Assembly: GCF_030122805.1 (NCBI RefSeq)
Contig: NZ_CP126080.1
Coordinates: 501,001 to 565,000, forward strand
Source of the DNA: Mesobacillus sp. AQ2
GTDB taxonomy: Bacteria; Bacillota; Bacilli; Bacillales; Cytobacillaceae
Reading direction: 5' to 3'
Length of the DNA stretch: 64,000 bases
Shown: positions 18,570-60,280 of the stretch, in pieces
Layout: each line of letters begins with the position of its first letter
Numbering within the stretch: the first letter of the stretch is position 1
The notes under the pieces: model-generated
Database searches by the model: none
Told to the model about the DNA's origin: nothing
The model's input: only the letters and a program-made list of their open reading frames with translations
Program-made: the position numbers and the translations under genes

Positions 18570-18573
18570 ACAA

Positions 18574-18602
18574 TAGCTTCCCAGGAATGGGAAGCTTCTT
18601 TT
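18574..18602 (+). terminator. Terminator of cadCA
   Basis: AGCTTCCC/GGGAAGCT stem followed by TCTTTT directly behind the cadA stop. Confidence 0.75.
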
Positions 18603-19318: not shown

Positions 19319-19350
19319 AAAAAGGCAAAGGGGATGTCCCTTTGCCTTTT
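19319..19350. terminator. Terminator of ferritin gene
   Basis: AAAGGCAAAGGG/CCCTTTGCCTTT stem, downstream of the minus-strand ferritin gene. Confidence 0.75.
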
Positions 19351-19402
19351 AACGTGAAATTGAGATAGTTATCAGCCAGCTAAATCGTACCTATACCAAA
19401 GT

Positions 19403-19912: not shown

Positions 19913-20091
19913 TCCCCGATTTCAATAAAATCTACAGTTTAGTTTATAGGAAATGGGCATTTGTGAAACTTGTTTTATATGTTTTTATTCGGGCTCTTTT
20001 TTTCAAGGAGGTCCTAAGAATTCAAATACATTATTTGGATGGAACAGGAAAAACTATAATAACATCTTGTTGTTTTTCTGGAGGGGTATGT

Positions 20092-22552: not shown

Positions 22553-22865
22553 CATTTTAGAAAAATGGGGAAAAGAAGATAATTACAATGGAGTTGTAAA
22601 CGGAGGGAATTCACCCGGCATTTTTGTTGTGAAAAAAACTGATATATCGTGACTATCAGATTTCGTCATACGTTTTAGATTTAGGTTTTATAGGGATTTT
22701 GGTCAAAATTGCAAACAATAAAATTAGTTAAAAGGCCATAAGGATCAATTAGTTATTTAGTCGGTTCCAAGGGGGGAAGATTGCCAACGGGATGAATCAG
22801 GAAAATTTTTTTTGTTCCCAAAATCGGATAAACCTGATATTATATTAAAAAAATAATACATAATC

Positions 22866-22990
22866 GCTTAATCCTTTGAGCGGGGGAACCAATTGTTACT
22901 TTTTTTAGTAATTGGGGTGAATCCTTAACAGGTAGGGTACTCTCAAAACCCGAACCCGACAGCTAACCTCGTAGGCGTGTTGAGAGGAAA
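22866..22990 (+). promoter_or_regulatory. c-di-AMP riboswitch (ydaO class) upstream of DAACS symporter
   Basis: Conserved blocks in order: TTGAGCGGGGGAACCAA (from about 22876), ATTGGGGTGAATCC (about 22911), then CCCGACAGCTAACCTCGTAG (22956-22975) and TTGAGAGGAAA. Same class as the copy at 1008. The terminator at 22993-23018 lies between it and the symporter gene, so ligand binding would be expected to shut the gene off. Confidence 0.92.
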
Positions 22991-22992
22991 AC

Positions 22993-24399: not shown

Positions 24400-24511
24400 A
24401 TAAGGAAAAGGCTTGCTAGGTTTTAGCGTGGGAAATAGCAGCAGATATGGCAACATGGTTTCTGAACGATGTTTTGAGTCAAGAACTAGCCACTAACTAC
24501 CCGCATCATCC

Positions 24512-25245
24512 TGGATGATTGATAGCTTTTTGGCTTCAACCCCCGAACCTGTCAAAATACCGATGCTATCTTGACAGCTTATCAGCTTCTGCCCCAGAAC
24601 CTGTCAAAATAACTATGTATTCTTGACAACTTTTCGGCTTCAACCCCCGAACCTGTCAAAATACCGATGCTATCTTGACAGCTTATCAGCTTCTGCCCCA
24701 GAACCTGTCAAAATAACTATGTATTCTTGACAACTTTTCGGCTTCAACCCCCGAACCTGTCAAAATAACAATGCTATCTTGACAACTTTTCGGCTTCAAC
24801 CCCCGAACCTGTCAAAATACCGATGTATTCTTGACAACTTTTCGGCTCCTGCCCTCGGACCTGTCTAAAAAACGATGCTTTCTTGACAGCTTATCGGCTT
24901 CAACTCCAGAACCTGTCAAAATACCGATGCTTTCTTGACAGCTTATCGGCTTCAACCCCCGAACCTGTCAAAATACCGATGCTTTCTTGACAACTTTTCG
25001 GCTTCTGCCCTCGGACCTGTCCAAAAAACGATGCTTTCTTGACAGCTTATCGGCTTCTGCCCTCGGACCTGTCAAAATACCGATGTTATCTTGACAACTT
25101 TTCGGCTTCTAGCCCCGAACCTGTCAAAATAATGATGCTATCTTGACAACTTATCGGCTTCAACCCTCGGACCTGTCAAAATACCGATGCTATCTTGACA
25201 GCTTATCGGCTTCAACCGCCGAACCTGTCAAAATAATGACGCTGG
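24512..25245. repeat. 52-bp tandem repeat array 2 (14 units)
   Basis: The GTCAAA or GTCTAAA/GTCCAAA core recurs at exactly 52-base steps fourteen times, from 24551 to 25227, with a partial unit before. Each unit reads ACCTGTCAAAATACCGATG, then (C)TATCTTGACA(G/A)CTT, then ATCGGCTTCAACCCCCGA with limited variants. TGTCAA and TTGACA form an inverted pair 15 bases apart. Reverse-complementing the unit of the array at 1-545 gives the same order of boxes (ACCTGTCTAAA, TTTGACAGCTT, GCTTC), so the two arrays are diverged relatives in opposite orientation with identical period. Confidence 0.95.
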
Positions 25246-25428
25246 ATTAACATCTTCAACCAGTAATTTAGAATCATTGATATAGTGATTTAACAAACAA
25301 ATCTCTTCCATATAGTTGGATACTAAGAGGGATTATTGAATGTTTTATAGAAAGTATTTAAAAGCAATGAAATGTTTGTTCCAGGACGATCAATGTAAAG
25401 ATAACTAGGAAAGTAAGGAGATTCAATA

Positions 25429-41070: not shown

Positions 41071-41675
41071 AACATATATTCAACAAGGGTAAGGTATCAA
41101 CAAAACCAACATTATTAATGCTTCACGGCACAGGAGGCAATGAATTGGACCTGCTGCCTCTAGCTGGAATGATTGATGATGAAGCTTCTGTCTTAAGTGT
41201 CCGCGGGAACGTATTGGAAAACGGAATGCCAAGATTTTTCAAAAGGCTGGCAGAAGGTGTGTTTGACGAAGAGGATTTAATTTTCCGGACAAAAGAATTG
41301 AATGAATTCCTTGATGAAGCAGCTGAAAAATACGACTTTGACCGTAACAATGTGATTGCCGTCGGTTATTCAAACGGAGCGAATATCGCGGCAAGCCTGC
41401 TGTTCCACTATGAAAATGCCTTGAAGGGAGCCATCCTTCATCACCCAATGGTGCCGAGAAGAGGTATTGAACTGCCTGACCTGACAGGAACTCCGGTATT
41501 CATTGCGGCAGGAACGAATGATCCAATCTGCTCACCGATGGAATCTGAACAACTTAAATCCCTGCTTGAGAAAGCTGGTGCTGATGTGAAACTCCATTGG
41601 GAGAATAGAGGCCATCAGTTGACCCGTGAGGAAGTCGAAGCTGCGGCGCAGTGGTACCTGGGACACGAGAGGTAA
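41067..41675 (+). CDS. mhqD: MhqD, phospholipase/carboxylesterase-like hydrolase
   Basis: 202 aa alpha/beta hydrolase closely resembling B. subtilis MhqD (YodD): LHGTGGNELDLLPLA (oxyanion region), VGYSNGANIAASLLFHY (nucleophile Ser), AGTNDPICSPMES (Asp) and WENRGHQLTREEVE (His). In B. subtilis mhqED is MhqR-controlled and contributes to resistance to methylhydroquinone. The final gene of this operon; likely hydrolyses the ring-cleavage product or a quinone conjugate (inference). A two-hairpin repeat follows. Confidence 0.9.
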   Translation: MKHIFNKGKVSTKPTLLMLHGTGGNELDLLPLAGMIDDEASVLSVRGNVLENGMPRFFKRLAEGVFDEEDLIFRTKELNEFLDEAAEKYDFDRNNVIAVGYSNGANIAASLLFHYENALKGAILHHPMVPRRGIELPDLTGTPVFIAAGTNDPICSPMESEQLKSLLEKAGADVKLHWENRGHQLTREEVEAAAQWYLGHER

Positions 41676-41686
41676 GAGTAGAAAAG

Positions 41687-41770
41687 GATGGGACACGGGG
41701 ACGGTTCTGGTGTCCCGACAGAAGAATAAAATATAACCTTGGGGACGGGAGAACCGTCCCCATTTCCTTT
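41687..41770 (+). repeat. Two-hairpin GGGACGG/CCGTCCC dispersed repeat, copy 3
   Basis: GGGACACGGGGACGGTTC, TGGTGTCCCG, then GGGGACGGGAGAACCGTCCC: the most complete copy. Hairpin 1 pairs GGGACAC with GTGTCCC; hairpin 2 pairs GGGGACGG with CCGTCCCC. It separates convergent mhqD and the dehydratase gene and likely terminates both. Confidence 0.8.
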
Positions 41771-41773
41771 TCT

Positions 41774-48844: not shown

Positions 48845-48921
48845 GATGCGTTGGTCAATATCCAGCTTCCATAGGTGGCGGCTGTTTTTATTGAATTCCT
48901 TATTGAACTCCCTCAGTTAGA
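48845..48921 (+). repeat. Cassette-type hairpin repeat, diverged copy
   Basis: GATGCGTTGGTC, then GGTGGCGGCTGTTTTTATTG, then AATTCCTTATTGAACTCCC. The 3' part matches other copies well; the hairpin arm has diverged. Confidence 0.6.
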
Positions 48922-49171
48922 TACCATTATCTCTCGAATACTCACTTATTCGCAGGATTTCAAATCACTTGAAAGAATAGTAGGGGATAGATTGAATGAG
49001 TCTGAACATTATGGCTACCTGAAGGCGTACTTTAATAAAGGATTTACTGCTAAATCCAATGATTTCCATATAATGTACGTTTTCTCCACGCTACCCCTGG
49101 AGGTTTTCACTCCCATGTCTCAACGGGTCAAAAGCCCTCTCATTCCTTCGTTACACCTATCCAAGTGGTAG
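48875..49171 (+). pseudogene. Possible gene fragment upstream of IS110 element
   Basis: A GTG-started frame of 98 codons overlaps the repeat at its 5' end. The stretch IISRILTYSQDFKSLERIVG to SNDFHIMYVF has protein-like composition, but there is no ribosome site and the C-terminus (VKSPLIPSLHLSKW) looks random. Probably the middle of a gene cut off by the neighbouring IS element. Confidence 0.3.
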
Positions 49172-49199
49172 AGGCCGGTCTTTCTAAAGAAACGGGTCT

Positions 49200-50700
49200 G
49201 AGCCCTTTTGTTCAATAAATCCGGTACTTGTACATTCTTTGAGTCCTGCGAAAAAGGCAGTATTCGAAAGGTATTAAATCTAAAGTATTTCTTTAATTAT
49301 TAACTAAACGTTAGGCAGCTATTGGCGTAATCGATTGGATCTTCTCGGAACGATAAGAATCATTCTTTCTGGCCATTCCTACTAATACTCTGGCGAGTTT
49401 ATGGATTAATTTCATTATTGATTTCATTTTCTTCATCTTCTTCACATTAACATTCTTAGCGTGCAGCTCTTTAAAATCAGGGTTGTTCATGACAAGACTC
49501 ATTGTGGCTAAATACAAAAAGCGCCGTAAACGCGATCTGCCACGCTTAGAAAGGACAATTTGTCCTTTCCATTTACCTGAACTGGCCTCTGAAAGATGTA
49601 ATCCAGCATGGCGCAATAGAGAATTACCATGCGCAAAACCACTGAGGTCACCCGATTCTCCAAGAATGCCTGCAAGTGCAATTTCACTAATTCCTTTGAT
49701 GGCAAGCAACTTTTTTGCGAAAGGAATTTGTTTAAGTAGGGAAGTGACTTCCTGTTCAACTCGTTCAAGTTGCGCAGTGGCTAAATCAAACTCTTCAATT
49801 AGCTGTTCCAGGTGTAGTTTATAAGCATCGAGTGCTTGTCGAGTGCCGACTGAATGCACAGCTAATTCAATTAAGGCTTGTGCTTTTTTTATCCCAGGTT
49901 GTCTTTTCATTTGGGATTTCCAACCTTCAACGACATCGGGTGCTTTCATGGAGCGTAGTTCAAGTGGTGTAGGGAATAGGCGCAGAGTCGCCATAGCCCC
50001 TTTGCCTTTGACATCTTTGAATACCTGTCGAAGTTCTGGAAAAACAATATCGACCCAACGGTTAATTTGATTGATGGCACTAACAAGTCTCTTAACTGTC
50101 ATATCACGGTTAGACATTAAAACTCTTAGTTTTTCAAAGACCTCTGAATTAGGGCGAATAAAGGAATAATAACCATTCTTGACCATATCAGCGATAACGA
50201 GAGCATCTTTTTTATCACTTTTCGATCGGCTATTATCACGGTTTTCTTTATTCTTTTTTACATGATGAGGGTTAACAGTTACTGCTTCAATGTCTTGATC
50301 ATATAGCCATTTTGAAAGGTTAATCCAATAATGTCCTGTAGGTTCCATCCCTATGATAGTTGAAGAAAAGCCTCTTAAGGTTTTTAACTGGTTTATCCAC
50401 TGTAGTAATTTAGCAAAACCTTCTTCATTATTTTCGAAGGTAAGTGGATCTCCCACTATTATTCCACGGAAATTCACAGCTCTGGCTACATGTAATTCTT
50501 GTGCAATATCCACACCAACTACAAGGTGGCTATCTGAAATTCTCTCTATCAGTTGATTTTGTTTGTCCTGCATTTTAAACTTCATAGTAAGGGTTCCTCC
50601 TTAGGGTTCTGAGTTAGAGTGGTGTCTATACTCATATCTTACTGAGGGACCTTATTTTATTCAAAGTTGAGAATTAGCTTTCTACAGGAATTCTATAGCA
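49200..50700 (-). mobile_element. IS110-family insertion sequence A
   Basis: Contains an intact transposase gene (49311-50585). The transposase-proximal left end reaches to about 50693: the sequence from ATTCCTGTAGA through CCTCAGTAAGATATGAG to AAGGAGGAA is repeated at 61463-61560, which fixes that side. The other end is not determined; boundaries are approximate. IS110 elements have no terminal inverted repeats. Confidence 0.7.
49311..50585 (-). CDS. IS110 family transposase (DEDD recombinase)
   Basis: 424 aa, intact. N-terminal RuvC-like DEDD domain: VVGVDIAQELHVARAVNFRG (first Asp), IIGMEPTGHYWINLSKWLYD (Glu) and SRSKSDKKDALVIADMVKNG (Asp pair). C-terminal Tnp20 domain: LLAIKGISEIALAGILGESG and KWKGQIVLSKRGRSRLRRFL with the Ser nucleophile. 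IS110 recombinases are guided by a bridge RNA encoded in the element's noncoding end (established for the family). Start ATG 50585 with AAGGAGGAA upstream. Confidence 0.93.
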   Translation of the reverse strand: MKFKMQDKQNQLIERISDSHLVVGVDIAQELHVARAVNFRGIIVGDPLTFENNEEGFAKLLQWINQLKTLRGFSSTIIGMEPTGHYWINLSKWLYDQDIEAVTVNPHHVKKNKENRDNSRSKSDKKDALVIADMVKNGYYSFIRPNSEVFEKLRVLMSNRDMTVKRLVSAINQINRWVDIVFPELRQVFKDVKGKGAMATLRLFPTPLELRSMKAPDVVEGWKSQMKRQPGIKKAQALIELAVHSVGTRQALDAYKLHLEQLIEEFDLATAQLERVEQEVTSLLKQIPFAKKLLAIKGISEIALAGILGESGDLSGFAHGNSLLRHAGLHLSEASSGKWKGQIVLSKRGRSRLRRFLYLATMSLVMNNPDFKELHAKNVNVKKMKKMKSIMKLIHKLARVLVGMARKNDSYRSEKIQSITPIAA

Positions 50701-50835
50701 GCATGATAGGTTCAATAAGAATGAAGATACTATTATTAAAATCTTTATTATTAGGGAGGATCCGACTATAAAAAATTTTATTTTAATTTTAAAGCCTATT
50801 TGGATATCCCAAACAGGCTTTAATTTCGGCTAAAG

Positions 50836-51108
50836 TTACTCTATACGAAGAGCAACTATGTCACGGCAGTCGACAAAAAGAGTGGTACCTGGCTCTTTTT
50901 CTTCGTCTTTAAATGTTGCACAGCAAGTTCTATTATTAATTCTCAAGAAGATTACATCTTCTAATACTTTACCACCTGATAAAAATACATCTACTTCTGT
51001 TCCTCGCTCTAACCTGTTTAGTATATTACAAGCACATTTATCACATCTGCTGCGGCTTGAACTTGTCCTCTTTTGATGACCCTCATTAGAATCACAGTAT
51101 TCACACAT
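50836..51108 (-). CDS. Small Cys-rich zinc-ribbon-like protein (90 aa)
   Basis: Start ATG 51108, nine bases after AAGGAGG; an in-frame ATG six bases earlier is possible. The N-terminus has MCEYCDSNEG and RCDKCACNIL, two CxxC pairs suited to bind one zinc. The second half, GTEVDVFLSGGKVLEDVIFL and CRDIVALRIE, has the small barrel pattern seen also in the 68-aa protein at 31946. No family name assigned. Confidence 0.6.
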   Translation of the reverse strand: MCEYCDSNEGHQKRTSSSRSRCDKCACNILNRLERGTEVDVFLSGGKVLEDVIFLRINNRTCCATFKDEEKEPGTTLFVDCRDIVALRIE

Positions 51109-51432
51109 TATCATTATCCTCCTTTCATTTATTGAATTACTTGCAATATCAATATATGTGGAGAAAAAAATGGTGTATAAACAAGTTCCCTGATTCAAAG
51201 GCACATTTTATTCTGATAATGAAAACCAAGTTCAAATTATAGATAAACTCAAAGAAACAATTGGGGGTAAAATCTCCCCAAGGTGCAGTCGAAAATGATG
51301 AACCTTACTTTAAATACAAACGATGCAGGGAGTTGAAGAAGAACTCTTGAATAGTATCTCACTTTTTAGTCTCTGAAGAACTAATACAAAATAAAAGGTA
51401 CTTCACTATAGTGAAAGCACCTGTACTATAAT

Positions 51433-51903
51433 TTAATCCCAAATTCGTATCCGTGGAACCCCTGCAGTTCTTAAATAATCCAATAGCTGACCAGTGTGAA
51501 TTGATTCGTGGTAGGCAATACGGAGGAGCATATCCCCCAAGTCTCTTATGTATCCTGAATCAGAGCGGTCTATCTTTATTTTTGTTAAATCTTCCTCAGA
51601 AAATGACTTGATTGTGTCGAAGAACTTATTACGATATGGTTTTGCAAACTCCATTTCCGCGCTTACTGTAGTGAAAGGCCTGTTTTCGAAAGGAGAAGTA
51701 AACTCTGGAAGGCTCCCTCTATTAATGATAGCTAGGTGATAATAATGTTCGCTTTCCAAAACATGCCTGATCATTTCTATGCAATTCATGGCTTCATCAT
51801 CAGGCTTCCATTTTAGTTTTTCTTCAGGTATTGATGACCACACCTTAATACTTCTTCTTCTAACTTCATTAAAGTTTAAAATAATTAGGTCAATTGAATT
51901 CAA
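51433..51903 (-). CDS. DinB family protein
   Basis: 156 aa four-helix bundle. Metal ligands expected of DinB/YfiT-like proteins are seen as the helix-2 His in EMIRHVLESEHYYHL and the C-terminal HESIHTGQLLDYLRTAG. Family members are metal-dependent transferases (often bacillithiol or mycothiol S-transferases). Length and the ending GVPRIRIWD are typical of Bacillus DinB proteins. Start ATG 51903 with AAGGGAGGGG upstream. Confidence 0.83.
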   Translation of the reverse strand: MNSIDLIILNFNEVRRRSIKVWSSIPEEKLKWKPDDEAMNCIEMIRHVLESEHYYHLAIINRGSLPEFTSPFENRPFTTVSAEMEFAKPYRNKFFDTIKSFSEEDLTKIKIDRSDSGYIRDLGDMLLRIAYHESIHTGQLLDYLRTAGVPRIRIWD

Positions 51904-52158
51904 AAAGAACCCCTCCCTTGATAGTCATAAATAAATAATACACGAATATATGTTCTTGCGGGACTTTTTGTTGAAGTTTATTAGAAATTATCTTAATAAC
52001 GAGTTTAATGGTATTTTTGGAGATAAGTAATAAGCTGTCATTCTTGGCGGTTTTTTTATTGAGAATTATTTATGTAAAAAATTGTTGCTGATTCCGAAAA
52101 ATGGAACCTTGAAAAATTTCAAATCGTCTAATTATCAAAAACAAGGTTGTGAGCAAAT

Positions 52159-52682
52159 ATGATTGACCCGGTAAAGAATTTAAACCGAGAGGAAAAACTG
52201 AAATGGCTCATGAATACATTTGGCAATGATATTATCAGGATTGCCTTTACATATCTGAAACAAAAAGATTAGCAGAAGATGTGGCGCAAGATGTATTTAT
52301 AAAATGTTATGAAAAGATGGATTCCTTTCGTAATGATTCATCTTATAAAACCTGGCTGATCCGAATTACGGTGAACAGGTGTAAGGATGTATTGAAGAGT
52401 TGGCATTATAAAAATTTATTTTTGACTGATTTTTTTAAACAAAATCATCAAACTGTTTCTGCAATTTATCATCATGAAGATGAATTAATATCACTTCATG
52501 TATTAAAACTCCCTATAAAACAGAGAGAAGTCATTATTCTATTTTATTATCAAGATCTATCCATCGAGGAAATCTCAGATCTGTTAGAGATTAACTCTAA
52601 TACCGTTAAAACAAGACTGCATCGAGGACGTCATAAATTAAAAGAATCATTGGAAGGAGCGGGAGCAATTGATGGAAAATAA
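52159..52682 (+). pseudogene. ECF sigma factor, one-base frameshift
   Basis: From ATG 52159 the frame reads MIDPVKNLNREEKLKWLMNT to FTYLKQKD, then stops at TAG. One missing T near 52269 would join it to LAEDVAQDVFIKCYEKMDSF (region 2) and to region 4, LPIKQREVIILFYYQDLSIE then EISDLLEINSNTVKTRLHRG. The rebuilt protein (about 175 aa) resembles YlaC-type ECF sigma factors. The anti-sigma gene overlaps its 3' end. Either a real frameshift that silences the pair, or a read error. Confidence 0.75.
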
Positions 52683-53430
52683 ACTTGATAATTTAAAAGA
52701 AAAAATGGATAACACCATTTTGAAAGATGTGAATTTTGATGATAGGCATCATCAGCAAGTCTTGAACTCCATAAAAAAGACCAAAATTGAAAAACACGTA
52801 TTTCAGCTGAAAAATAAATTTAACACTCTACTTAGTGTTTCGGTGGTTTCGGTCTTGTTTTTAGGTATTCTATATTTTGTTGGAATCCAGCTAAACTTAT
52901 TAAATGGACCTAACATGAGACAGGCTGGGGAGCCAAAGGAGTCTCTAAATAAGCCTTCAAATGAGGATGCGACATCTATACAAAGAAATAAAGAAGCAAT
53001 TAAAAAAATACTTGAGCTTGAGTTTACCGGTCCAGATGAGAAGTTAATGGGTCTAATGTGGAATCCTAAATATAAGACTGTTGTGAATGGTCAAGAAGAG
53101 AACAAAGAATTTGATCAATATTTAGAAGAGAAGTACGGTTCTTTCTTTACAGATGCGGGTCTCCATTCCTTCATAGCAGCATATGGCGGTACTCAATACC
53201 AGACATATGCTTACAACGCTGGTTATAAGTTAAGCTTTAAGGGAGTTACCACCGAGCAAAATCAGCATAACCCGAGACTTTATATCTTTGTTGCGAAAGT
53301 TGGTTATCAAAAGAGCGGCGAAGAAGAAAAAACTGTGGATGTAGAAGGTAAGGTTTTGATGTCAGAAGGAAAAATAGGAGAATTTAAGTATGGAAATGAC
53401 GAAGGTTTGTCAGATAAATTGAGGGAATAA
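52672..53430 (+). CDS. Anti-sigma factor-like membrane protein
   Basis: 252 aa from ATG 52672. Cytosolic N-terminus (ENKLDNLKEKMDNTILKDVN, FDDRHHQQVLNSIKKTKIEK), one membrane helix (LLSVSVVSVLFLGILYFVGI, about 50-70), then an outside domain of about 180 residues with repeated aromatic stretches (SFIAAYGGTQYQTYAYNAGY). Gene position, 11-base overlap with an ECF sigma gene and topology mark it as the cognate anti-sigma. No zinc-binding HxxxCxxC motif is present, so it belongs to a non-ZAS type. Confidence 0.75.
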   Translation: MENKLDNLKEKMDNTILKDVNFDDRHHQQVLNSIKKTKIEKHVFQLKNKFNTLLSVSVVSVLFLGILYFVGIQLNLLNGPNMRQAGEPKESLNKPSNEDATSIQRNKEAIKKILELEFTGPDEKLMGLMWNPKYKTVVNGQEENKEFDQYLEEKYGSFFTDAGLHSFIAAYGGTQYQTYAYNAGYKLSFKGVTTEQNQHNPRLYIFVAKVGYQKSGEEEKTVDVEGKVLMSEGKIGEFKYGNDEGLSDKLRE

Positions 53431-53456
53431 GAAATTTAATGATGACTTTATTAATT

Positions 53457-53535
53457 GTGCGTTGCTCTAGGAAAGATTAACGCACTTTGATGTTTCATTT
53501 CTTATTGCACAAACGATGCAGGAATGTTGAACAAG
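53457..53535 (+). repeat. Cassette-type hairpin repeat
   Basis: GTGCGTT...AACGCAC hairpin (53457-53494), then TTTCTTATTGCACAAACGAT and GCAGGAATGTTGAACAAG. One copy between the anti-sigma gene and the GNAT gene; the hairpin can terminate the upstream operon. Confidence 0.8.
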
Positions 53536-53582
53536 CAAAAGTGTTGGAATATTTATTCAGCGACTTCTAGGGAGGGGAAATT

Positions 53583-54010
53583 TTGAAAATAACTCAACAA
53601 TGGAACCAAGAAGATAGTGAATACATTCGAAAGAATGTAATTGAACATAATCTTTCTAAGCTACCTGATGATGTAAAACATCCAGTTAAGAATATTAGCT
53701 TTATTCTTAGGGATGAAGGAGGAGAAATATTAGGTGGCATAAAGGAACAATTTTTTGGTATAACTTACATATTGATTTCCTGTGGGTTGATGAATCACTT
53801 AGGGGTAGCGGTTATGGGAAAGAGTTATTAAATCATATAGAAAAAATAGCGAGAGAAAACAGGTGCCAATTAATTCAACTTGATACGTTTAGCTTTCAAG
53901 CACCGGACTTCTATCAAAAAAATGGTTATGAGATAGTCGGTGTAATTGAAGGACATCCAAACAAAGAAAATCAGCAGTATTACCTAAAAAAGACATTAAC
54001 TTATAGATGA
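53583..54010 (+). pseudogene. GNAT acetyltransferase, one-base frameshift
   Basis: TTG start after AGGGAGGGGAAA. The first frame (NWEDSEYI-like start, then SFILRDEGGEILGGIKEQFF) runs out at 53831. Adding one T to the six-T run near 53752 restores WYNLHIDFLWVDESLRGSGY, then GKELLNHIEKIARENRC and APDFYQKNGYEIVGVIEGHP to TGA 54010, a full GNAT with CoA loop RGSGYG. A homopolymer deletion is a common sequencing error but is also a common natural mutation. Confidence 0.75.
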
Positions 54011-54049
54011 ATCATATATACACTCAGAGGGCAAGTGATCTTTATAGCA

Positions 54050-54095
54050 TAAGAACAGGCAGCGTTGTTATTGAACAAACGAAGCAGTTATATGG
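54050..54095 (+). repeat. Cassette-type repeat, 3' part
   Basis: AGCGTTGTTATTGAACAAAC, then GAAGCAGTTATATGGAAGAA matches the downstream box of the other copies; the hairpin arm upstream is decayed. Confidence 0.55.
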
Positions 54096-54174
54096 AAGAA
54101 GGTATTCCAAATTTGTGTTTAAAGAAGCATCCAGTTAGCTGTCTAATCAGGAATAGTTTTGGAGGCAATTATGA

Positions 54175-54780
54175 ATGAGCAGACTATTTAAACTTTGCAT
54201 TTGCAATCTTGTATTGATAATTTTCTTAGTCAGTTGTTCCAATTCAACAAATGTGTCAGAGGATAAGGAAGACATAAATCTATATGCATCGTCGTTTGAG
54301 AAACTGCTAGATGATTATCCGCAATTGGAATCCACATATAACAGAATACCTACAAAACTTCATGATAAGATTGTTGCTCCATCGCTAGAAGAAATCCCTT
54401 TTAAAGTTGAGGAAGTAAAGTTAGATTACGATAATGACCCAACAGGAATGATTCCTGCAATAATGATTCTATACACTGGAGATAATAAAAGGGTTACAAG
54501 TACGGTTTGGTATCATGATGGTACTTCTATTCCAGGTAAAGAGTTATTGTTGGATCATGATATCAAGGCTTTTTACCTCAACAATATAGAGGAAATAGCT
54601 ATTACTTGGAGAGATCCTGATAAGAATAGTAAGCTATTATACCGTGTAGGATTGTTAACGTTTGAAAAGGGTTCATTAACTAAAGCAAAAAATCAATTAT
54701 CTAAAGATGATGCTGTATCTATCGCTAATAGTATGATTAATAATTACTATCGTTCTAGAAGCGAAACACAGAACGATTAA
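54175..54780 (+). CDS. Lipoprotein of unknown function (201 aa)
   Basis: ATG 54175 with GGAGGC upstream. Signal with lipobox FLVSC (Cys about 20). Mature part of mixed alpha/beta: SFEKLLDDYPQLESTYNRIP, then PFKVEEVKLDYDNDPTGMIP, AIMILYTGDNKRVTSTVWYH and a helical end (DDAVSIANSMINNYYRSRSE). No family recognised; anchored at the outer face of the membrane. Flanked on both sides by cassette-type repeats. Confidence 0.7.
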   Translation: MSRLFKLCICNLVLIIFLVSCSNSTNVSEDKEDINLYASSFEKLLDDYPQLESTYNRIPTKLHDKIVAPSLEEIPFKVEEVKLDYDNDPTGMIPAIMILYTGDNKRVTSTVWYHDGTSIPGKELLLDHDIKAFYLNNIEEIAITWRDPDKNSKLLYRVGLLTFEKGSLTKAKNQLSKDDAVSIANSMINNYYRSRSETQND

Positions 54781-54805
54781 CTCTTCTTTTTCATAAAATG
54801 ATAAT

Positions 54806-54894
54806 TGGTTGTTAGCAAAGTGGCGGTTTTTCATTAACGAATAATCCCTTTTTCTTCATATTAAAGTAACGATGCAGGTTAGTTCAACAAGAAT
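54806..54894 (+). repeat. Cassette-type hairpin repeat, diverged copy
   Basis: GGTTGTTAGC...GGCGGTTTTTCATTAACGAA, then CTTCATATTAAAGTAACGAT and GCAGGTTAGTTCAACAAGAA. The 3' box is among the best preserved. Confidence 0.65.
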
Positions 54895-55152
54895 TTAGAG
54901 AACAGTTAGGAATGAAGGATTACGAGTCAGTAGGAAGTTCAAAAATAATTGCAGATTAGGTGTGAGCAGGTGTAGATCCAGCAGTGAGAAGAACTGGCTT
55001 GGAGTTATCAGTTGGCAGCGGACTGAGTTTGATTAGTCAAATTAGGCCCGAATAGGGGAAGTGGCTTCTTAAGATTTAGATGCCTATATAAACATATTTT
55101 TGAAACTTCTGACGACTTTATTCGTAATAAATACTATAAAAGGGGGGATACA
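54895..55152. other. Short intergenic stretch with decayed coding
   Basis: Contains TTAGAGAACAGTTAGGAATG and similar coding-like pieces broken by stops; nothing recognised. It is part of one cassette-like interval. Confidence 0.3.
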
Positions 55153-55479
55153 TTGAAGTTAAAATGGTATATATTTTTCGTTTTACTAGTCCTGGTTTTA
55201 GAATTAGGTTTGCTTTTTGGGGTATCACATTATTTTGAAACAAATCTTGTAGATACAATGTTTTTAGGGTCAGTTGGATTTACCATTATAGCATTTTTAT
55301 TTAGTTCTAAAGGAGACGCATTGTCAAAGAATTCACAGGTAGCAGTTTTCCATATGTTCTTAGGAAATTACAAGCCACAACATGAGAAAGCAACATTTAC
55401 CATTAATCCCTTCTTAGTAGGATCTCTATTGTGCTTTATTGCATATTTTGTTCTTTATTATTTAGGAGTTATAAGTTAG
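55153..55479 (+). CDS. Small three-helix membrane protein, paralogue 1
   Basis: 108 aa, TTG start after AAAAGGGGGGATACA. Helices WYIFFVLLVLVLELGLLFGV, FLGSVGFTIIAFLFSS and PFLVGSLLCFIAYFVLYYLG. The pattern VSHYF...VDTMFLG...FLFSSKGD...SKNSQ is shared in order with the product at 58105 (VSHFL...IDYSFFVG...FFTSRGG...TQNSN), so they are paralogues. Family not named here; function unknown. Confidence 0.7.
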   Translation: MKLKWYIFFVLLVLVLELGLLFGVSHYFETNLVDTMFLGSVGFTIIAFLFSSKGDALSKNSQVAVFHMFLGNYKPQHEKATFTINPFLVGSLLCFIAYFVLYYLGVIS

Positions 55480-55584
55480 AAATAATTAGTTTATAAAAAA
55501 TATTGATACAAAAGTGTTTAGGCACATTCTTGCTTATTTTCGAACAGGGGGGAGCAGTTTAGCAAAAGAAGGGTCGGCGAAGGG

Positions 55585-55661
55585 GTGCGTTGATCCAAAA
55601 GGATTAACGGCCTTTTTTATTGATTTCCTTATTTAGCTAACATGCAGTTATGTTGAAGAAG
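55585..55661 (+). repeat. Cassette-type hairpin repeat
   Basis: GTGCGTTGATCC (55585-55596) pairs with GGATTAACGG (55601-55610), then CCTTTTTTATTGATTTCCTT and GCAGTTATGTTGAAGAAG. A typical full copy with terminator potential. Confidence 0.85.
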
Positions 55662-55698
55662 GAAGTAAACGATTTAAGAATTTCTAAGGGGTAAGGTT

Positions 55699-56265
55699 AT
55701 GAAAGTTGAGAGGAAATTTAAAAATGAAACAGAACAAGATAAACGAAGTCTATTGAGAGCCCAGAAAACATCATTATATTGGTTGCTAGGAATAATATAT
55801 GTTTCTTTTTTAGGAGTGCAGCTTGGTCGGATCCAAGCTATAACTGATTTTAATTATTCATTACACGAGATGTTGTATATACCTGCAACTTTGTCTTCTT
55901 TTATTGTTCCAATAACGTTTTTAATATATATGTATTTTGTAATAAAATACTTACGAAAATGGGGAATCCAAAAGCCGAATATAAACCCTGTTATAAAAGC
56001 AGTGTTAGTAATAATCTCCTTATTAACAATATTTTCTTTATTAAATTTTCAATCTAAAGAAGTTTCTACTGGTGGAGTATTTAAGGTTGAACAGAAAATT
56101 CAAGAAGATACAAAATACTATTTGATATTAAACGATAAAAAAATTAGGGTGTCAAGGAATGAATTTTATTTAGTTGATTTAAATAAGGAATACTTAGGGA
56201 CTTTTGTTTGGAATTCACAAACTAACAGAGGCAGACTTGAAACTATTGAGCCAATCTTGAAATGA
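55699..56265 (+). CDS. Membrane protein of unknown function (188 aa)
   Basis: ATG with AAGGGGTAAGG upstream. Three helices (SLYWLLGIIYVSFLGVQLG; LYIPATLSSFIVPITFLIYM; VIKAVLVIISLLTIFSLL) preceded by a charged N-terminus, then a soluble beta-rich tail of about 70 residues (KVEQKIQEDTKYYLILNDKK). No family recognised. Confidence 0.65.
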   Translation: MKVERKFKNETEQDKRSLLRAQKTSLYWLLGIIYVSFLGVQLGRIQAITDFNYSLHEMLYIPATLSSFIVPITFLIYMYFVIKYLRKWGIQKPNINPVIKAVLVIISLLTIFSLLNFQSKEVSTGGVFKVEQKIQEDTKYYLILNDKKIRVSRNEFYLVDLNKEYLGTFVWNSQTNRGRLETIEPILK

Positions 56266-56303
56266 AGTATGATTCAAGGTCAGGAAAGAACCTTATTCTC
56301 TCC

Positions 56304-56352
56304 AATGCGATGATCCAGGAAGGGATAAGCAACTTTTTTGTGAAAATCCTTA
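56304..56352 (+). repeat. Cassette-type repeat, 5' half split by IS110
   Basis: AATGCGATGATCCAGGAAGG, GATAAGCAACTTTTTTGTG and AAAATCCTTATT match the 5' half of other copies. The matching 3' half (GAACGGTGCAGGATAGTT) lies at 57990-58020 on the other side of the IS110 element, as though the insertion split one copy. Confidence 0.65.
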
Positions 56353-56441
56353 TTAAACAAAACCAGCTAATAGTTTGTCAATATTTTTCATTAAAATTAT
56401 AAAATTCATCGTGATATACTAAAAAAGGGTATACCAAATAA

Positions 56442-56472
56442 CCTTCATATTCTTAGAATTGGAAGGTTTTTC
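56442..56472 (+). terminator. Terminator-like hairpin inside IS110 B
   Basis: AACCTTC (56442-56448) pairs with GAAGGTT (56462-56468), followed by TTTTC. It could shield the element from outside transcription. Confidence 0.5.
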
Positions 56473-56494
56473 GTAATTTAGTTAGATGTTGTTT

Positions 56495-57730
56495 CTAAGC
56501 TATATCTTGGAAAGTGGTCCGGTTTCTTAAAAGGGCAAATATCCAATGTAAGAGCTTATTTACACAAGCAATTACAGCTACCTTAAATGGCTTTCCTTCT
56601 TCACGCTTCTTGTCGTAAAACTCACGCATTCGTTTGTTTCGGGGAATGATTTCATCCGTCGTTTTCTGTTTACGACAATCGCGTATGGCACATCGAACAG
56701 CCATATATAAGGCGTGACGAAGCCTGCTGGAACCTCTTTTGGTGATTCGGTTTTTGGTGGCAGTAAACTTGCCAGATTCGAAAACACTAGGGTCTACTCC
56801 AGCGAAAGCCACGAGCTTTTTAGGGTCAGTAAATCGATCTATCTCTCCAATTTCAGAAATGATCGTTGCCGCGATCTTTTCTCCGATACCAGGGATAGAT
56901 TTGATAATATTATATTCTTCAACTTCTTTAGCGAGGGCATCTATCTCTGACTCCAACGTGGATAGGTGTTCTTTGTATTGAAGAATAATATCAATATACA
57001 TACCTAAGCTTAAGATATGACTCTGATAGACTGTCTTTTCAAAGGGATTGCGAGCTGCCGCCTCTTTTAGTTGTAAGGCTTTTTCATTGGCCCATCTGAT
57101 TGAGCGACTTTTACATAATTCCTTAATCCTATTTGAGAGTGCTTCATCACTAGCCTTTAATATGTCTTCAGATGATGGAAACTCCTTTAACGTTAAGAGT
57201 GATACCACAGAATATAAATCACCGAACACCCCTCGATACTCAGGGAATACTTGATCCAGAATAGCCTGGAACTGCAGCTTTGTCTGAATCATGACTCCTG
57301 TAATATTCTCGTGTTGTCTTGTAAGGTTACGAAGGTTTAAAAGCTGGACCCCTCGCTTTTTATATGGCTCTAACTCTTCCTTGTAATACAACTCGCAGAG
57401 GTGGTAAGCATCGACGGCATCTGTCTTTACTTTCCTTAAACTTGAACTTTTCGCCTTGTAGGAAATTAAAGGGTTAATAATGATTAATAAATACCCACGT
57501 TCCTCTAAATATTGGACTACTGATGTTTGATAGTGTCCAGTAGCTTCAAGAATAACTGGAGGTTTTAGACCCGATTCTTTTTGTACTACCTCTAAAAACT
57601 CTACAAGTGACTCAAGCCCCTGAAGTGTATGAGCTACTTTAAAGCTCTTACGGAATGGTTTGCCTTTATCGACAAAAGCTTGAACCTGACTTTCCCCCTT
57701 AGAAATATCCAGACCAACGACTGGATTCAT
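56495..57730 (-). CDS. IS110 family transposase (DEDD recombinase)
   Basis: 411 aa, intact. RuvC-like domain: PVVGLDISKGESQVQAFVDK (Asp), PPVILEATGHYQTSVVQYLE (Glu), LRKVKTDAVDAYHLCELYYK (Asp pair). C-terminal Tnp20: IIKSIPGIGEKIAATIISEI and FTATKNRITKRGSSRLRHAL with the Ser nucleophile. Start ATG with TTAGGAGATGG upstream. Only distantly related to the transposase at 49311; the two elements are different IS110 lineages. Confidence 0.93.
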   Translation of the reverse strand: MNPVVGLDISKGESQVQAFVDKGKPFRKSFKVAHTLQGLESLVEFLEVVQKESGLKPPVILEATGHYQTSVVQYLEERGYLLIIINPLISYKAKSSSLRKVKTDAVDAYHLCELYYKEELEPYKKRGVQLLNLRNLTRQHENITGVMIQTKLQFQAILDQVFPEYRGVFGDLYSVVSLLTLKEFPSSEDILKASDEALSNRIKELCKSRSIRWANEKALQLKEAAARNPFEKTVYQSHILSLGMYIDIILQYKEHLSTLESEIDALAKEVEEYNIIKSIPGIGEKIAATIISEIGEIDRFTDPKKLVAFAGVDPSVFESGKFTATKNRITKRGSSRLRHALYMAVRCAIRDCRKQKTTDEIIPRNKRMREFYDKKREEGKPFKVAVIACVNKLLHWIFALLRNRTTFQDIA

Positions 57731-57975
57731 CCATAACCATCTCCTAATCTTTTATTTTGCCGGTACCCCTTATTTTCCTTGCAGTGTCACAGCTTCGCTT
57801 GTTATACGAGATCTATGTCCCAACCAGCCTCAATCATGTTTCTACAAGTAGGGGGCAAACTGTTTTGTTGACGGGATCCAGGTCCCACGTGCAGTTACGT
57901 TTTACCCCGGCTACCGTTATAATAAGACCATATAGAAAAAGGTCAACCAGAAATATTTTCTTATCTGGATGACCT
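57731..57975 (-). ncRNA. Candidate IS110 bridge RNA region
   Basis: In IS110-group elements a structured bridge RNA is encoded between the left end and the recombinase start (established for IS621). Here that interval is about 240 bases, non-coding, and unusually GC-rich for the area, with potential stems such as GTGGGACCTGGATCCCGTC on the minus strand and a promoter-like TTGACC...TATAAC set near its outer end. No covariation check was possible. Confidence 0.45.
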
Positions 57976-57989
57976 TATAATACGATGAC

Positions 57990-58020
57990 CTTATAATACG
58001 AACGGTGCAGGATAGTTAAA
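57990..58020 (+). repeat. Cassette-type repeat, 3' half split by IS110
   Basis: ATACGAACGGTGCAGGATAG followed by TTAAAAAAG is the downstream box of the repeat with no hairpin arm; the arm is found at 56304-56352, on the other side of IS110 B. Confidence 0.65.
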
Positions 58021-58104
58021 AAAGTAAACCAGCCAGGTTTTACACACATAAATGAAACTTTCCCCCAAATTTTACGTAATAATTAAGAAAAGGGGGGAGT
58101 ATTT

Positions 58105-58422
58105 GTGGGGAAGATTCTTAATATTGTTATAACTTTGGTTTTGATATTGGGAATAAACTATGTAGTATCCCATTTTTTAAATGCAGCCTTTATAGATTAC
58201 TCTTTTTTTGTGGGACTTATAACTTCAATAATAATTGGATTTTTCACTTCCAGAGGTGGCCTTACTACTCAAAATAGCAATATGTTGATCCAAGCTCAAA
58301 CTATGTATAAAATGGCACCTGAAAAATTTAAAATCAGACCAAACTTTGCGTTATATACTGCAATTGCCTATACCATTCTTTCTTTAATAACAATGATTTT
58401 TGTTTACAGAGATTATTTTTAA
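58105..58422 (+). CDS. Small three-helix membrane protein, paralogue 2
   Basis: 105 aa, GTG start after AAAAGGGGGGAGTATTT, nearly the same leader as paralogue 1 at 55153. Helices ILNIVITLVLILGINYVVSH, FFVGLITSIIIGFFTS and FALYTAIAYTILSLITMIFV. The soluble loop TSRGGLTTQNSNMLIQAQTM is the most conserved part versus paralogue 1. Function unknown. Confidence 0.7.
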   Translation: MGKILNIVITLVLILGINYVVSHFLNAAFIDYSFFVGLITSIIIGFFTSRGGLTTQNSNMLIQAQTMYKMAPEKFKIRPNFALYTAIAYTILSLITMIFVYRDYF

Positions 58423-58435
58423 TTTTGATTCTAAT

Positions 58436-58475
58436 ATCCTTACAATTTGAACAAAAGGAGCAGTAATCTTGAAGA
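58436..58475 (+). repeat. Cassette-type repeat, 3' part
   Basis: ATCCTTACAATTTGAACAAA, then AGGAGCAGTAATCTTGAAG, nearly identical to the 3' part of the copy at 59547. Confidence 0.65.
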
Positions 58476-58513
58476 GGAATTGTGGCTACATCAATAAAAA
58501 GGTGAAAACATTT

Positions 58514-58606
58514 ATGATAGAAGCTCTAAGTAATTTCTTCGGTGCAATAGCTTCGGCTTTATGGGGCAAAAAATCTAAAAAAGAGAAAGTTAATAAATCA
58601 TTCTAG
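58514..58606 (+). CDS. Very small protein (30 aa) between repeats
   Basis: ATG 58514 with AAAAGGTG upstream; reads MIEALSNFFGAIASALWGKK and ends KKEKVNKSF. Amphipathic first half and basic tail resemble short membrane-active or membrane-associated peptides. An in-frame TTG at 58469, with AAAAGGAGCAG before it, would lengthen it to 45 aa. No family recognised. Confidence 0.4.
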   Translation: MIEALSNFFGAIASALWGKKSKKEKVNKSF

Positions 58607-58626
58607 ATGGACAAATGGGTGTGTTT

Positions 58627-58709
58627 GAATGCGATGATCGATAAAGGATTAACGCATTTTTTGTTGAATTTCTTATTTAAGTAAAGATACAGGTGTCTTG
58701 AATAAATAG
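58627..58709 (+). repeat. Cassette-type hairpin repeat
   Basis: AATGCG (58628-58633) pairs with CGCATT (58652-58657) around GATGATCGATAAAGGATTAA, then TTTTGTTGAATTTCTTATTT and AAGTAAAGATACAGGTGTC. Full copy. Confidence 0.82.
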
Positions 58710-58720
58710 GAGGGTAATAA

Positions 58721-58843
58721 ATGGAGCTAGTTATAGCAATATTAGCTGTTTTATCTTCTATAGGGATACTTTATTATATGGGGAAGTCTGGATTTAAATG
58801 GGGCGAGAACATCGACCAACAAGATGAAAAGGATAGGAAGTAA
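58721..58843 (+). CDS. Small membrane protein (40 aa)
   Basis: ATG 58721 after AGGAGGGTAATAA, an excellent ribosome site; TAA at 58841. One helix (LVIAILAVLSSIGILYYMG) then a charged tail (ENIDQQDEKDRK). It fills one complete interval between two repeat copies. No family recognised. Confidence 0.55.
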   Translation: MELVIAILAVLSSIGILYYMGKSGFKWGENIDQQDEKDRK

Positions 58844-58870
58844 CATTGAAAAAGGTAAGTATTAATAGCA

Positions 58871-58940
58871 AGGATGCATTGTTCTTGAAGAATAATGCAA
58901 TTCCTTATTTAACATAAGGAGCAGGTTAGTTAAAGAACAT
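58871..58940 (+). repeat. Cassette-type hairpin repeat, diverged copy
   Basis: AGGATGCATTGTTCTTGAAG, then AATAATGCAATTCCTTATTT (stem TGCATT/AATGCA), then AGCAGGTTAGTTAAAGAAC. The hairpin is kept while its sequence has changed, which points to a structural constraint. Confidence 0.72.
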
Positions 58941-58975
58941 TTAGGGCACATTACTTTCAAAAAGGAGTAACCTAA

Positions 58976-59521
58976 ATGAAAAATTCATTATTAATTAGCT
59001 TGTACATTGTATGTAGCATTTTTATGTTATTAGGAAATCCTGTTTATTCACGAGCTTCTTATCCAAATAAAGTTGACTACCTGTATCCTGCAAATACGGA
59101 AAAAATAATTGATGAAACTGTAGATGGATTTTACCAGGCTCTAAGAGATAGAAGGTATCCAGTACATCAGGAATTTTACGTAAGACATAAGTATAGCCAA
59201 GAAGATTTGGATGCTGGTCTCTTTAAAGAAATGACTGATGCATCAGTTAATATTAGGAAAAAGGTATTGTTTAATGAGCTTAAAGGATTCAATTATATGA
59301 CTTGGGATGGAAATGTTTTTCATACCTATCCTGATATAGATTTAAAATACCATCAGACAGTCAGCCCCAATAGGCAAGTTTTTTTCTTCTATTCCTTTAA
59401 AGACACAGAGAAAGAATTTAGAGGTAAATATGCAATTTATGATGTTGAAACAAAAGAATTCCTATCAGGTGGAGGTATGTATTTCCCGAAATATCCGACT
59501 TATAAGGATCATTTGAAGTAA
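58976..59521 (+). CDS. Secreted protein of unknown function (181 aa)
   Basis: ATG with AAAAAGGAGTAACC upstream. Signal peptide (LLISLYIVCSIFMLLGNPVY) with a likely cleavage near SRAS. The mature region includes IDETVDGFYQALRDRRYPVH, FKEMTDASVNIRKKVLFNEL and a beta-rich end (VFFFYSFKDTEKEFRGKYAI). No Cys, so not a lipoprotein. No family recognised. Confidence 0.68.
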   Translation: MKNSLLISLYIVCSIFMLLGNPVYSRASYPNKVDYLYPANTEKIIDETVDGFYQALRDRRYPVHQEFYVRHKYSQEDLDAGLFKEMTDASVNIRKKVLFNELKGFNYMTWDGNVFHTYPDIDLKYHQTVSPNRQVFFFYSFKDTEKEFRGKYAIYDVETKEFLSGGGMYFPKYPTYKDHLK

Positions 59522-59546
59522 CAAATGAGTATTTTTAAAGAAACGG

Positions 59547-59624
59547 GTGCGTTGATCCAGAAGGATTAGCCACCTTTTTTGTTGAATTCCTTATTGAACA
59601 AAAGAAGCAGTAATCTTTAAGAAC
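59547..59624 (+). repeat. Cassette-type hairpin repeat
   Basis: GTGCGTTGATCC pairs imperfectly with GGATTAGCCAC, then TTTTTTGTTGAATTCCTTAT, TGAACAAAAGAAGCAGTAAT. Close to the family consensus. Confidence 0.83.
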
Positions 59625-59686
59625 TTTATCGACACATCACTGTAAATCGTGTAAAATTTTGGTATCACTTTTTGGGGGAAATCATT

Positions 59687-60280
59687 TTGATTGGAATAGA
59701 ACCATTAGCGTTTTTAAGCAGTATTATATTCCTTATAATTTACTTCATTAGGTTGAAAAATAAGAGAATTACAGTCGGTCGTTCAATTATTGACGCAGTT
59801 TTTTTAATTTATTTGATATGTCTATTAAATATAACTATTTTTCCAATTCCATTTCAAAAGAACTTTATTAATGATTACTTAATATCCCTTGGTGTTGATG
59901 TTCCTTATAAGTATAATTTAATTCCTTTTATGACTGTCTGGAATTCACTTCAGAACGCAGTTACTTATCATACCTATTTTTTAGAACTTAGAAATATAGG
60001 AGGGAATCTTGTTCTATTGGCTCCCTTAGGATTATATTTCCACTTTATTAAGAGGAATTTAAGCCTAAGGAAATTAATAGTTAGCGGATTTCTAATTTCA
60101 TTTTTGATTGAGATTATTCAGTTATCAATTTCCTTATCTATTGGTTATTCTTATCGTAGTTTTGATATTGATGATTTACTTCTAAATACATTAGGTTTTA
60201 TATTTGGTTATAAGGCATTTTTATTAATAAAAAATGAAATTTTAAAACAGGGAACAGTATCTTCTAAAATCAAAGTTTAA
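59687..60280 (+). CDS. VanZ family membrane protein
   Basis: 197 aa from TTG 59687 (GGGGGAAATCATT upstream). Five hydrophobic helices; VanZ-type conserved pieces are DAVFLIYLICLLNITIFPIP, KYNLIPFMTVWN, NIGGNLVLLAPLGLYFHFIK and SFLIEIIQLSISLSIGYSYR followed by SFDIDDLLLNTLGFIFGY. VanZ domains are linked to low-level teicoplanin resistance, but most stand-alone members have unknown function. Last gene of the cassette-like series; a terminator follows. Confidence 0.87.
   Translation: MIGIEPLAFLSSIIFLIIYFIRLKNKRITVGRSIIDAVFLIYLICLLNITIFPIPFQKNFINDYLISLGVDVPYKYNLIPFMTVWNSLQNAVTYHTYFLELRNIGGNLVLLAPLGLYFHFIKRNLSLRKLIVSGFLISFLIEIIQLSISLSIGYSYRSFDIDDLLLNTLGFIFGYKAFLLIKNEILKQGTVSSKIKV

Follow-up and report, generated by a model that had tools for sequence, protein, structure and literature searches.

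The 64-kb stretch analysed here, which we call the window, is 501001-565000 of the Mesobacillus sp. AQ2 genome (4.80 Mb, one contig); coordinates below are window positions unless stated otherwise. Between 53430 and 59690 it holds a row of small genes with a repeat in every gap. The initial annotation of this DNA had described this order from an anti-sigma gene to vanZ, and a 43-column profile of the repeat's conserved part, an inverted dyad, bears it out with nine copies starting at 53497, 54063, 54853, 55623, 57986, 58439, 58668, 58900, and 59586, all on the plus strand. These score 13.1-44.0 versus a highest plus-strand score of 0.7 in positions 1-20000. Twelve dyads in the window reach the profile threshold of 13, including three weaker ones at 21332, 26272, and 31780 that the initial annotation did not mention. 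On the reversed sequence of all loci scanned, the profile found no match (939,331 bases; separate run 628,945 bases). As set out below, comparison with related genomes makes it very likely that the row is an array of mobile single-gene cassettes, exchanged at the dyads by a dedicated tyrosine recombinase.

The repeat has two parts, a 5′ hairpin with a T-run (GTGCGTTGATCC..GGATTAACGCAC), which looks like a rho-independent terminator, and a 3′ dyad, TTTTCTTATTnAACTAACGnnGCAGGTTAGTTnAAnAAG. The dyad consists of two 14-bp inverted arms (CTTnTTnAACTAAC) flanking a 7-bp asymmetric spacer, GnnGCAG, in which GCAG is nearly invariant (93-97% per base). The initial annotation had described a hairpin repeat in which the dyad figured as two conserved words, but the common element is this dyad on the 3′ side: by eye, no hairpin is clearly recognisable in the copies at 54063, 57986, and 58439, and other genera have different sequence ahead of the dyad. 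The compensating changes reported for the hairpins were confirmed. In 32 copies from several genomes the covariation score was 0.260, compared to 0.170 ± 0.016 in shuffled alignments (0 of 500 as high), and cells changed on both sides numbered 25, compared to 10.7 ± 2.4. Covariation was absent from the dyad arms, as 67.3% of cells were paired in 72 copies versus 68.7% after shuffling, a test that by itself cannot rule out folding of the dyad altogether. The arms are symmetric in sequence and vary at the same two positions without compensation, as would be expected of a protein dimer on double-stranded DNA; the dyad is probably a double-stranded protein site.

Many copies carry a second partial dyad ~60-64 nt upstream of the main one, consisting of a left arm followed by GGGTGC (AACTAAC-GGGTGC). 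It scores above 7 in 132 of 366 cassettes, and left-arm scores above 8 were found upstream of sites in 33% of cases, compared to 18% of control stretches. Two full dyads apparently flank the terminator in a plasmid array and in a genome from another order, whose recombinase is 50% identical. Tests of four arm pairings in 130 and 355 cassettes revealed no significant covariation (z = -0.7, -2.4, +1.5, and -0.3). Because of this, recognition of the dyad site appears to be by sequence and not by fold, although the layout is integron-like.

To describe the cassettes, we collected 366 intervals of 150-2500 bp between consecutive dyads (sites scoring ≥18, a few duplicate loci included), with a median length of 694.5 bp. 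The longest open reading frame (ORF) was co-oriented with the site in 307 of 363, compared to 154 of 298 in reversed sequence, giving one ORF plus one site in a common orientation, as in integron cassettes. The distance from site to ORF start varied (interquartile range 60-181 nt). For a random sample of 60 out of 149 cassette proteins, the 25 of 56 Pfam families shown include GNAT (3), NUDIX (2), and methyltransferases (2), with glyoxalase, VanZ, SUFU, TerC, a beta-lactamase-family hydrolase, and several DUFs once each; two defence models had two member matches each. A scan limited to consensus promoters gave 18 promoter-like matches versus 26.4 in shuffles. A promoter shared by the whole array is argued against, because terminators stand between the genes.

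We determined where homology between arrays begins and ends. In a first count of 452 sites, 295 homologous pairs were alike downstream of the site, 291 upstream, and only 1 on both sides. When same-species and duplicate loci were left out, 588 sites gave 386 downstream-homologous pairs, 410 upstream-homologous pairs, and again 1 homologous on both sides. At control points, 9000 taken from the 27,879 grid positions that lie >1.5 kb away from all sites, the corresponding numbers were 824, 857, and 371. These data strongly support the conclusion that similarity between homologous cassettes extends from one dyad to the next and that their neighbours switch at dyads.

The breakpoint could be placed more finely. 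Identity at spacer motif positions 20 and 21 was 0.74 and 0.79 in upstream-homologous pairs, 0.57 and 0.57 in downstream-homologous pairs, and 0.55 and 0.48 in random pairs, while identity at position 26 was 0.39, 0.61, and 0.45, respectively. Since positions 20 and 21 track the upstream cassette and position 26 the downstream one, exchange would occur within or at the edges of GCAG (positions 22-25). Blastn comparison gave 521 retained alignments, of which 177 touch sites in both sequences; 158 of the 177 have at least one end ≤25 nt from a site in either sequence, a criterion that a random position meets in 6.4% of cases. The hairpin, earlier considered as a folded exchange site, is rejected in that role because the breakpoints fall in the spacer of the adjacent dyad, which lacks a fold signal. 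Also rejected was a mobile terminator or miniature inverted-repeat transposable element, as homology is one-sided at sites and 1 of 386 pairs shares both sides. The simpler model of the initial annotation, a mobile terminator marking points of acquisition, is likewise unsupported because the moving unit is the gene together with its terminator.

Individual cassettes support the same logic of a cassette array, which the first reading of the window had surmised. Homologous cassettes formed 53 pairs in 27 families. The two members have no neighbour in common in 42 pairs, one in three, and both in eight; all eight come from AQ2 and G118, which are the same species, or from L046 and G045, which are one locus. 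The 5′ border was exact to ≤5 nt in 45 of the 53 pairs. Some cassettes are common to different genera at 94-96% identity (G053/G127 and G020/G091). Within AQ2, the 686-bp cassette at 58921-59606 is ~89% identical, crossover to crossover, to a 687-bp cassette at 3805.8 kb of the genome, whose neighbours are unrelated. A ~96% identical copy of the 453-bp cassette (58007-58459) lies between other neighbours at 2427.7 kb.

As candidates for gain or loss, we took 19 rows in which two blocks adjoin in one sequence and stand apart in another. Four rows, representing three distinct events (G045 and L046 are one locus), have all three junctions ≤19 nt from a site, with inserts of 558, 1545, and 2429 nt. 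In the 558-nt event, the unoccupied junction reads ..CTTATTGAACTATAGGGGCAG joined to CATTCCTG.., split at GCAG, and the occupied one reads ..CTTATTGAGCTATAGAAGCAG joined to GTTAGCTC.., then the cassette, then ..GTTATTGAACTAAAGAGGCAG joined to CATTCCTG... The proposal that arrays change at repeat borders is therefore borne out for these three events and not for the other 15 rows, which are weighed below. By comparison of genomes, gain, loss, and exchange thus appear to occur exactly at the site, as in integrons.

A search for tyrosine recombinases in 12 array-bearing genomes yielded one group whose members lie within or beside the arrays, with matches at E ≤ 1e-50 in nine of the 12. The proteins are ~280 amino acids long. 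For the five proteins compared, the best NCBIfam model was XerA-type NF040815 (202-212 bits; cut-off 220), followed by XerD and XerC, and all five fell below the cut-off of the integron-integrase model TIGR02249 (92-105 bits; cut-off 265). The nearest solved structures by sequence are XerD (1a0p), an XerC-like protein (4a8e), an XerD-FtsK construct (5dcf), and XerA (5hxy), with IntI4 (2a3v) a weaker match. When the Mesobacillus recombinase was aligned with 13 viral relatives, the R, K, HxxR, H, and Y that we take to be the catalytic residues were invariant.

The recombinase is associated with the sites across the family. Matches at E ≤ 1e-50 occur in 72 of 151 genomes; setting aside five below 40% identity leaves 67 with a gene or remnant, and our reading of the table gives 47 of the 151 with an uninterrupted full-length gene. 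The median site count was 14 in the 67 genomes and 3 in the other 84 (Mann-Whitney p = 3e-8), and the relationship held within genera (permutation p = 4e-4). The same-species genome G118 has an intact recombinase. The segment carrying it was compared with the AQ2 genome over 9.1 kb, which are absent there. This segment begins 24 nt past a gene that is presumably glmS (L148 10907 / AQ2 188586), with short AT-rich repeats at the border, and we take it to resemble a Tn7-type insertion.

To examine the surroundings of the gene, we used 29 listed recombinase loci (28 distinct, five broken or partial), partly chosen for holding it. In nine, a dyad lies 77-92 nt upstream, divergent from the gene. Left of GCAG, these nine dyads share a further stretch (GGAATTATTGCC..TAGAAAT.., with variants), and right of it each runs into different sequence. 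A few other loci have, by eye, a dyad one base shorter. Of 29 full-length cases, five have a left arm with GGGTGCG or a variant of it directly after, 64-74 nt past the 3′ end of the gene. Together, the divergent upstream dyad and the left arm past the 3′ end indicate that the recombinase gene seems to be an inverted module within the array, and the divergent dyad may act like attI.

We also determined how the sites are distributed. A covariance model built from the dyad alignment was searched in the AQ2 genome, and the best 150 of 1497 candidates were scored at E ≤ 1, giving at least 35 matches at no fewer than 34 distinct places. Even spread over the genome, expected if the repeat were a common terminator, was not seen, as 24 of the 33 gaps between neighbouring places (34 distinct places) are shorter than 2.5 kb versus 0.59 expected. 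Clusters lie near 0.55, 2.08, 2.16, 2.42-2.43, and 3.80-3.86 Mb, with isolated places elsewhere. Of the 151 family genomes, 134 contain one or more matches at E ≤ 0.01; up to the best 42 candidates per genome were scored, making the highest counts lower bounds. With the best 150 candidates scored, G020 has at least 72 matches at E ≤ 0.05. The majority strand of the sites matched the sign of GC skew in all 21 array regions computed, which could be due to gene strand bias.

In a phylum sample of 348 genomes, sites at E ≤ 0.001 occurred in three, AQ2 included (up to the best 18 candidates per genome). Recombinase matches at E ≤ 1e-70 occurred in two genomes outside the family, G418, which has sites, and G216, which has no matches to the dyad site model despite its recombinase; G344 has sites and no array recombinase at this threshold. 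One G216 locus (L170, G216:C47; same class, other order) has a 50% identical recombinase and double dyads of its own, and is a diverged relative system. Relatives of the recombinase are also encoded on eight plasmid records, from Peribacillus (3), Sporosarcina, Cytobacillus, Niallia, Metabacillus, and one named Arthrobacter citreus; three of the eight are annotated as tyrosine-type recombinase/integrase. Of two records inspected, the Arthrobacter citreus record has a row of small genes on both sides of the recombinase and the Sporosarcina record a shorter row. So far, the system has been seen in Bacilli only, except for the record named Arthrobacter citreus.

Viral relatives of the recombinase were found at 25 loci, 20 at 49-66% identity and five at 37-41%, and the dyad profile matched one of the 25 (L177). 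Since only three of the viral loci were checked for other repeats, arrays of diverged sites may exist at viral loci. On a viral contig with a 57% identical recombinase (L186), a palindrome with dyad-like arms, CAACTAACGACGAAGCGTTAGTTG, lies at 4345, 1.65 kb from the gene, and is possibly an attP. In a quick tree, 26 array recombinases formed one clade (support 0.994), wider clades were weak (0.58 and 0.17), and G216 grouped among viral sequences; the 188-amino-acid relative described below had an empty row and was disregarded.

The features of the window are listed in Table 1. The entry given earlier as 56304/57990 is one site, split by an insertion sequence, an IS110-family element. The IS110 copies in the window (56495-57730) and in G000 (~3818.5-3820.2 kb) are 93.75% identical over 1681 nt and sit at one same position within two different site copies, as if the element targets the dyad site. 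Among the outlying copies reported, 48845 is truncated and 27002 is a hairpin only (dyad score -10.9). Two traces had also been reported. At 51310, a short stretch matches partially (26 nt, 89%, genome E 0.053), with a dyad score (-7.0) far under the threshold, and nothing was found at 52030 (-11.1). A Pfam scan of seven cassette-region proteins of the window with neighbours gave clear matches for VanZ and a sigma factor and none over cut-off for the others.

Table 1. Sites, cassettes, and associated genes of the array in the window
Feature	Position	Strand	Remarks
Truncated site: hairpin region and left arm only	48845..48905	+	best nearby dyad score -8.8
Site 1: terminator hairpin and recombination dyad (putative)	53457..53539	+	profile match 53497-53539, score 43.6
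Cassette, 566 bp between crossover points	53518..54083	+	acetyltransferase-like frame, resembles GNAT by eye, discontinuous (53583-53831 open)
Site 2: dyad, no clear hairpin	54063..54105	+	score 36.9
Cassette, 790 bp	54084..54873	+	ORF 54175-54780, by eye lipoprotein-like, no Pfam match
Site 3: dyad	54853..54895	+	score 42.7
Cassette, 770 bp	54874..55643	+	ORF 55153-55479, by eye small membrane protein, no Pfam match
Site 4: hairpin and dyad with 1-nt deletion	55585..55665	+	score 13.1
Membrane-protein ORF of the cassette after site 4	55699..56265	+	no Pfam family over cut-off
Site 5, left part (hairpin and left arm), interrupted by IS110	56304..56355	+	
IS110-family transposase inside site 5	56495..57730	-	PF01548, PF02371
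Site 5, right part (spacer and right arm), 3′ of IS110	57986..58028	+	score 34.5
Cassette, 453 bp	58007..58459	+	ORF 58105-58422
Site 6: dyad, no clear hairpin	58439..58481	+	score 24.3
Cassette, 229 bp	58460..58688	+	longest ORF 45 amino acids
Site 7: hairpin and dyad	58627..58710	+	score 27.5
Cassette, 232 bp	58689..58920	+	longest ORF 40 amino acids
Site 8: hairpin and dyad	58871..58942	+	score 44.0
Cassette, 686 bp	58921..59606	+	ORF 58976-59521, unknown protein
Site 9: hairpin and dyad	59547..59628	+	score 37.1
VanZ-family gene (PF04892), 3′ of last site	59672..60280	+	

Elsewhere in the window, a second transposase-like ORF (49311-50585), by eye IS110-type and unlike the first, adjoins the truncated site at 48845. 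A 52-nt unit is repeated in tandem arrays at 1-624 and 24415-25338, with two c-di-AMP riboswitches nearby (997-1146 and 22855-22991), and G118 holds a stretch similar to these arrays. Multi-copy repeats with GGAC..GTCC words at 8549-9717 and 41673-41771 are, by eye, similar to repetitive extragenic palindromic (REP) elements. A tRNA scan of the 64 kb found none, and no Rfam family matched in the array at gathering (two matches, at E 2.5 and 4.7, were far under the gathering score).

Our model is that each cassette consists of one short, usually co-oriented gene, often with a rho-independent terminator, and a dyad on each side. The ~280-amino-acid tyrosine recombinase of related strains and plasmids would bind both arms in their double-stranded form and exchange strands within GCAG, and a cassette would enter or leave as a unit together with its terminator, presumably through a circular intermediate. 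In some loci, the dyad near and divergent from the recombinase gene would serve like attI.

Several observations weigh against this model. The identity profile around the breakpoint is ragged, and left-arm positions (12 and 13) are also above random in downstream-homologous pairs, in a position-by-position comparison that is ungapped and uses homologous pairs that are not independent. Both alignment ends lie at sites in only 24 of the 177 alignments, only 20 of 53 pairs have a 3′ cassette border exact to ≤5 nt, and in 15 of the 19 gain/loss rows one or more junctions lie away from sites, several rows being far from them. No circular form of a cassette was seen. Three of the 12 array-bearing genomes (G081, G091, and G119) have no recombinase of this group at E ≤ 1e-50, and copies of the gene are often broken or partial, which suggests repeated decay of the system. 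The divergent dyad at 77-92 nt is present in only nine of the 29 loci; three have a dyad elsewhere, 10 have none within -1200 to 1500 nt, and in seven (six distinct) the nearest lies at 1004-1008 nt behind a conserved gene, which in G045, the only such locus translated, is alpha/beta-hydrolase-like. Finally, the tyrosine recombinase that the initial annotation had proposed to seek elsewhere in the genome was found in relatives' arrays and not in AQ2, where a Pfam model detects only XerC, XerD, and one 188-amino-acid relative. Because AQ2 lacks a dedicated recombinase, its arrays are probably orphaned, or else served in trans.

Four other explanations were considered. The array could be the remnant of a canonical integron, in which an IntI moves degenerate attC sites that are read as folded single strands. 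The layout of gene plus site is the same, some loci have a divergent integrase near an attI-like site, and attC consists of two simple sites, which the second partial dyad resembles. As the arms are conserved in sequence, neither the four pairings nor the 72-copy test revealed significant covariation, and the recombinase scores far below the integron-integrase cut-off, we consider this origin improbable. It is slightly less likely still that host XerC and XerD act on the sites as on dif modules and that the array recombinase is incidental. The two-arm geometry and the Xer complement of AQ2 fit this idea; the presence of a distinct recombinase or remnant in 67 of 151 family genomes, within arrays at the loci inspected, does not. 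We give little credence to passive, RecA-dependent recombination of dispersed repeats without a dedicated enzyme: AQ2 does have arrays and no dedicated recombinase, but the common stretch is imperfect and only ~40 nt long, the breakpoint is centred on a 4-bp block and not spread over the repeat, and recombinase presence correlates with site number within genera. Least credible is that the dyad is a transcription-factor operator, the genes a regulon, and the hairpins ordinary terminators; dyad symmetry, location upstream of genes, and single orientation would suit an operator, but the variable distance to the ORF, the nearly invariant asymmetric GCAG, the switching of cassette partners exactly at GCAG, and the recombinase in relatives' arrays lead us to reject it.

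With exchange by a dedicated recombinase as the preferred explanation, a broader proposal, in which we have reasonable though lesser confidence, is that Bacilli have an integron of their own: a widespread system that evolved independently, with a phage-related, XerA-like integrase and double-stranded dyads, spread across genera and on large plasmids, with orphan arrays throughout the family. We see a fair chance that its origin is independent of integrons. Integrons are the textbook case of single-gene capture, and if this proposal is correct, a large Gram-positive family has an equivalent, one that standard models would miss because both integrase and site differ. Many small genes confined to particular lineages would then be explained, cassette exchange would have a second solution that apparently does without folding, and there would be a recombinase whose site is compact and readable, as well as a second system in which the origin of cassettes could be tested. 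We found no description of such a cassette system in the literature searched (titles and abstract openings, with bioRxiv and most subscription papers outside the search), and searches with the site strings returned only papers unrelated by title.

Among known systems, NF040815 XerA-type recombinases provide the best family model for the array recombinase, which differs in scoring below the curated cut-off and in its putative role in cassette exchange. Xer/dif and pdif modules have two inverted arms, a short spacer, and genes bracketed by sites. The Bacilli system shares the two-arm geometry and the site-bracketed genes and differs in its dedicated recombinase within arrays, direct site orientation, and long arrays. 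IS1111-attC insertion sequences target attC; the IS110-family element found at the same place in two dyad-site copies is similar, except that its target is the Bacillaceae dyad. According to the IntegronFinder 2.0 report, Firmicutes contain one complete integron (Limnochorda pilosa) and a few clusters of attC sites lacking integron-integrases (CALIN), and integrons there are extremely rare (PMC9024848). The Bacilli arrays resemble integrons in their one-gene cassettes in one orientation, exact borders, many arrays without integrase, and, at some loci, an attI-like site from which the integrase gene points away, and their second partial dyad recalls attC. Integron cassettes also have content of similar kinds, namely GNAT, NUDIX, glyoxalase, methyltransferases, and unknowns. 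Unlike integrons, the integrase is XerA/XerD-like, far under the IntI model, and sits inside arrays, the site has conserved inverted arms without fold signal, and many sites include a terminator. No folded attC kept by covariation was found, as the covarying hairpin is the terminator. Membership among integrons does not follow from these data, because IntI and folded attC were both tested and neither was detected. The best reading of the comparison is an integron-like cassette system of Bacilli, with what appear to be its own integrase lineage and sequence-recognised sites.

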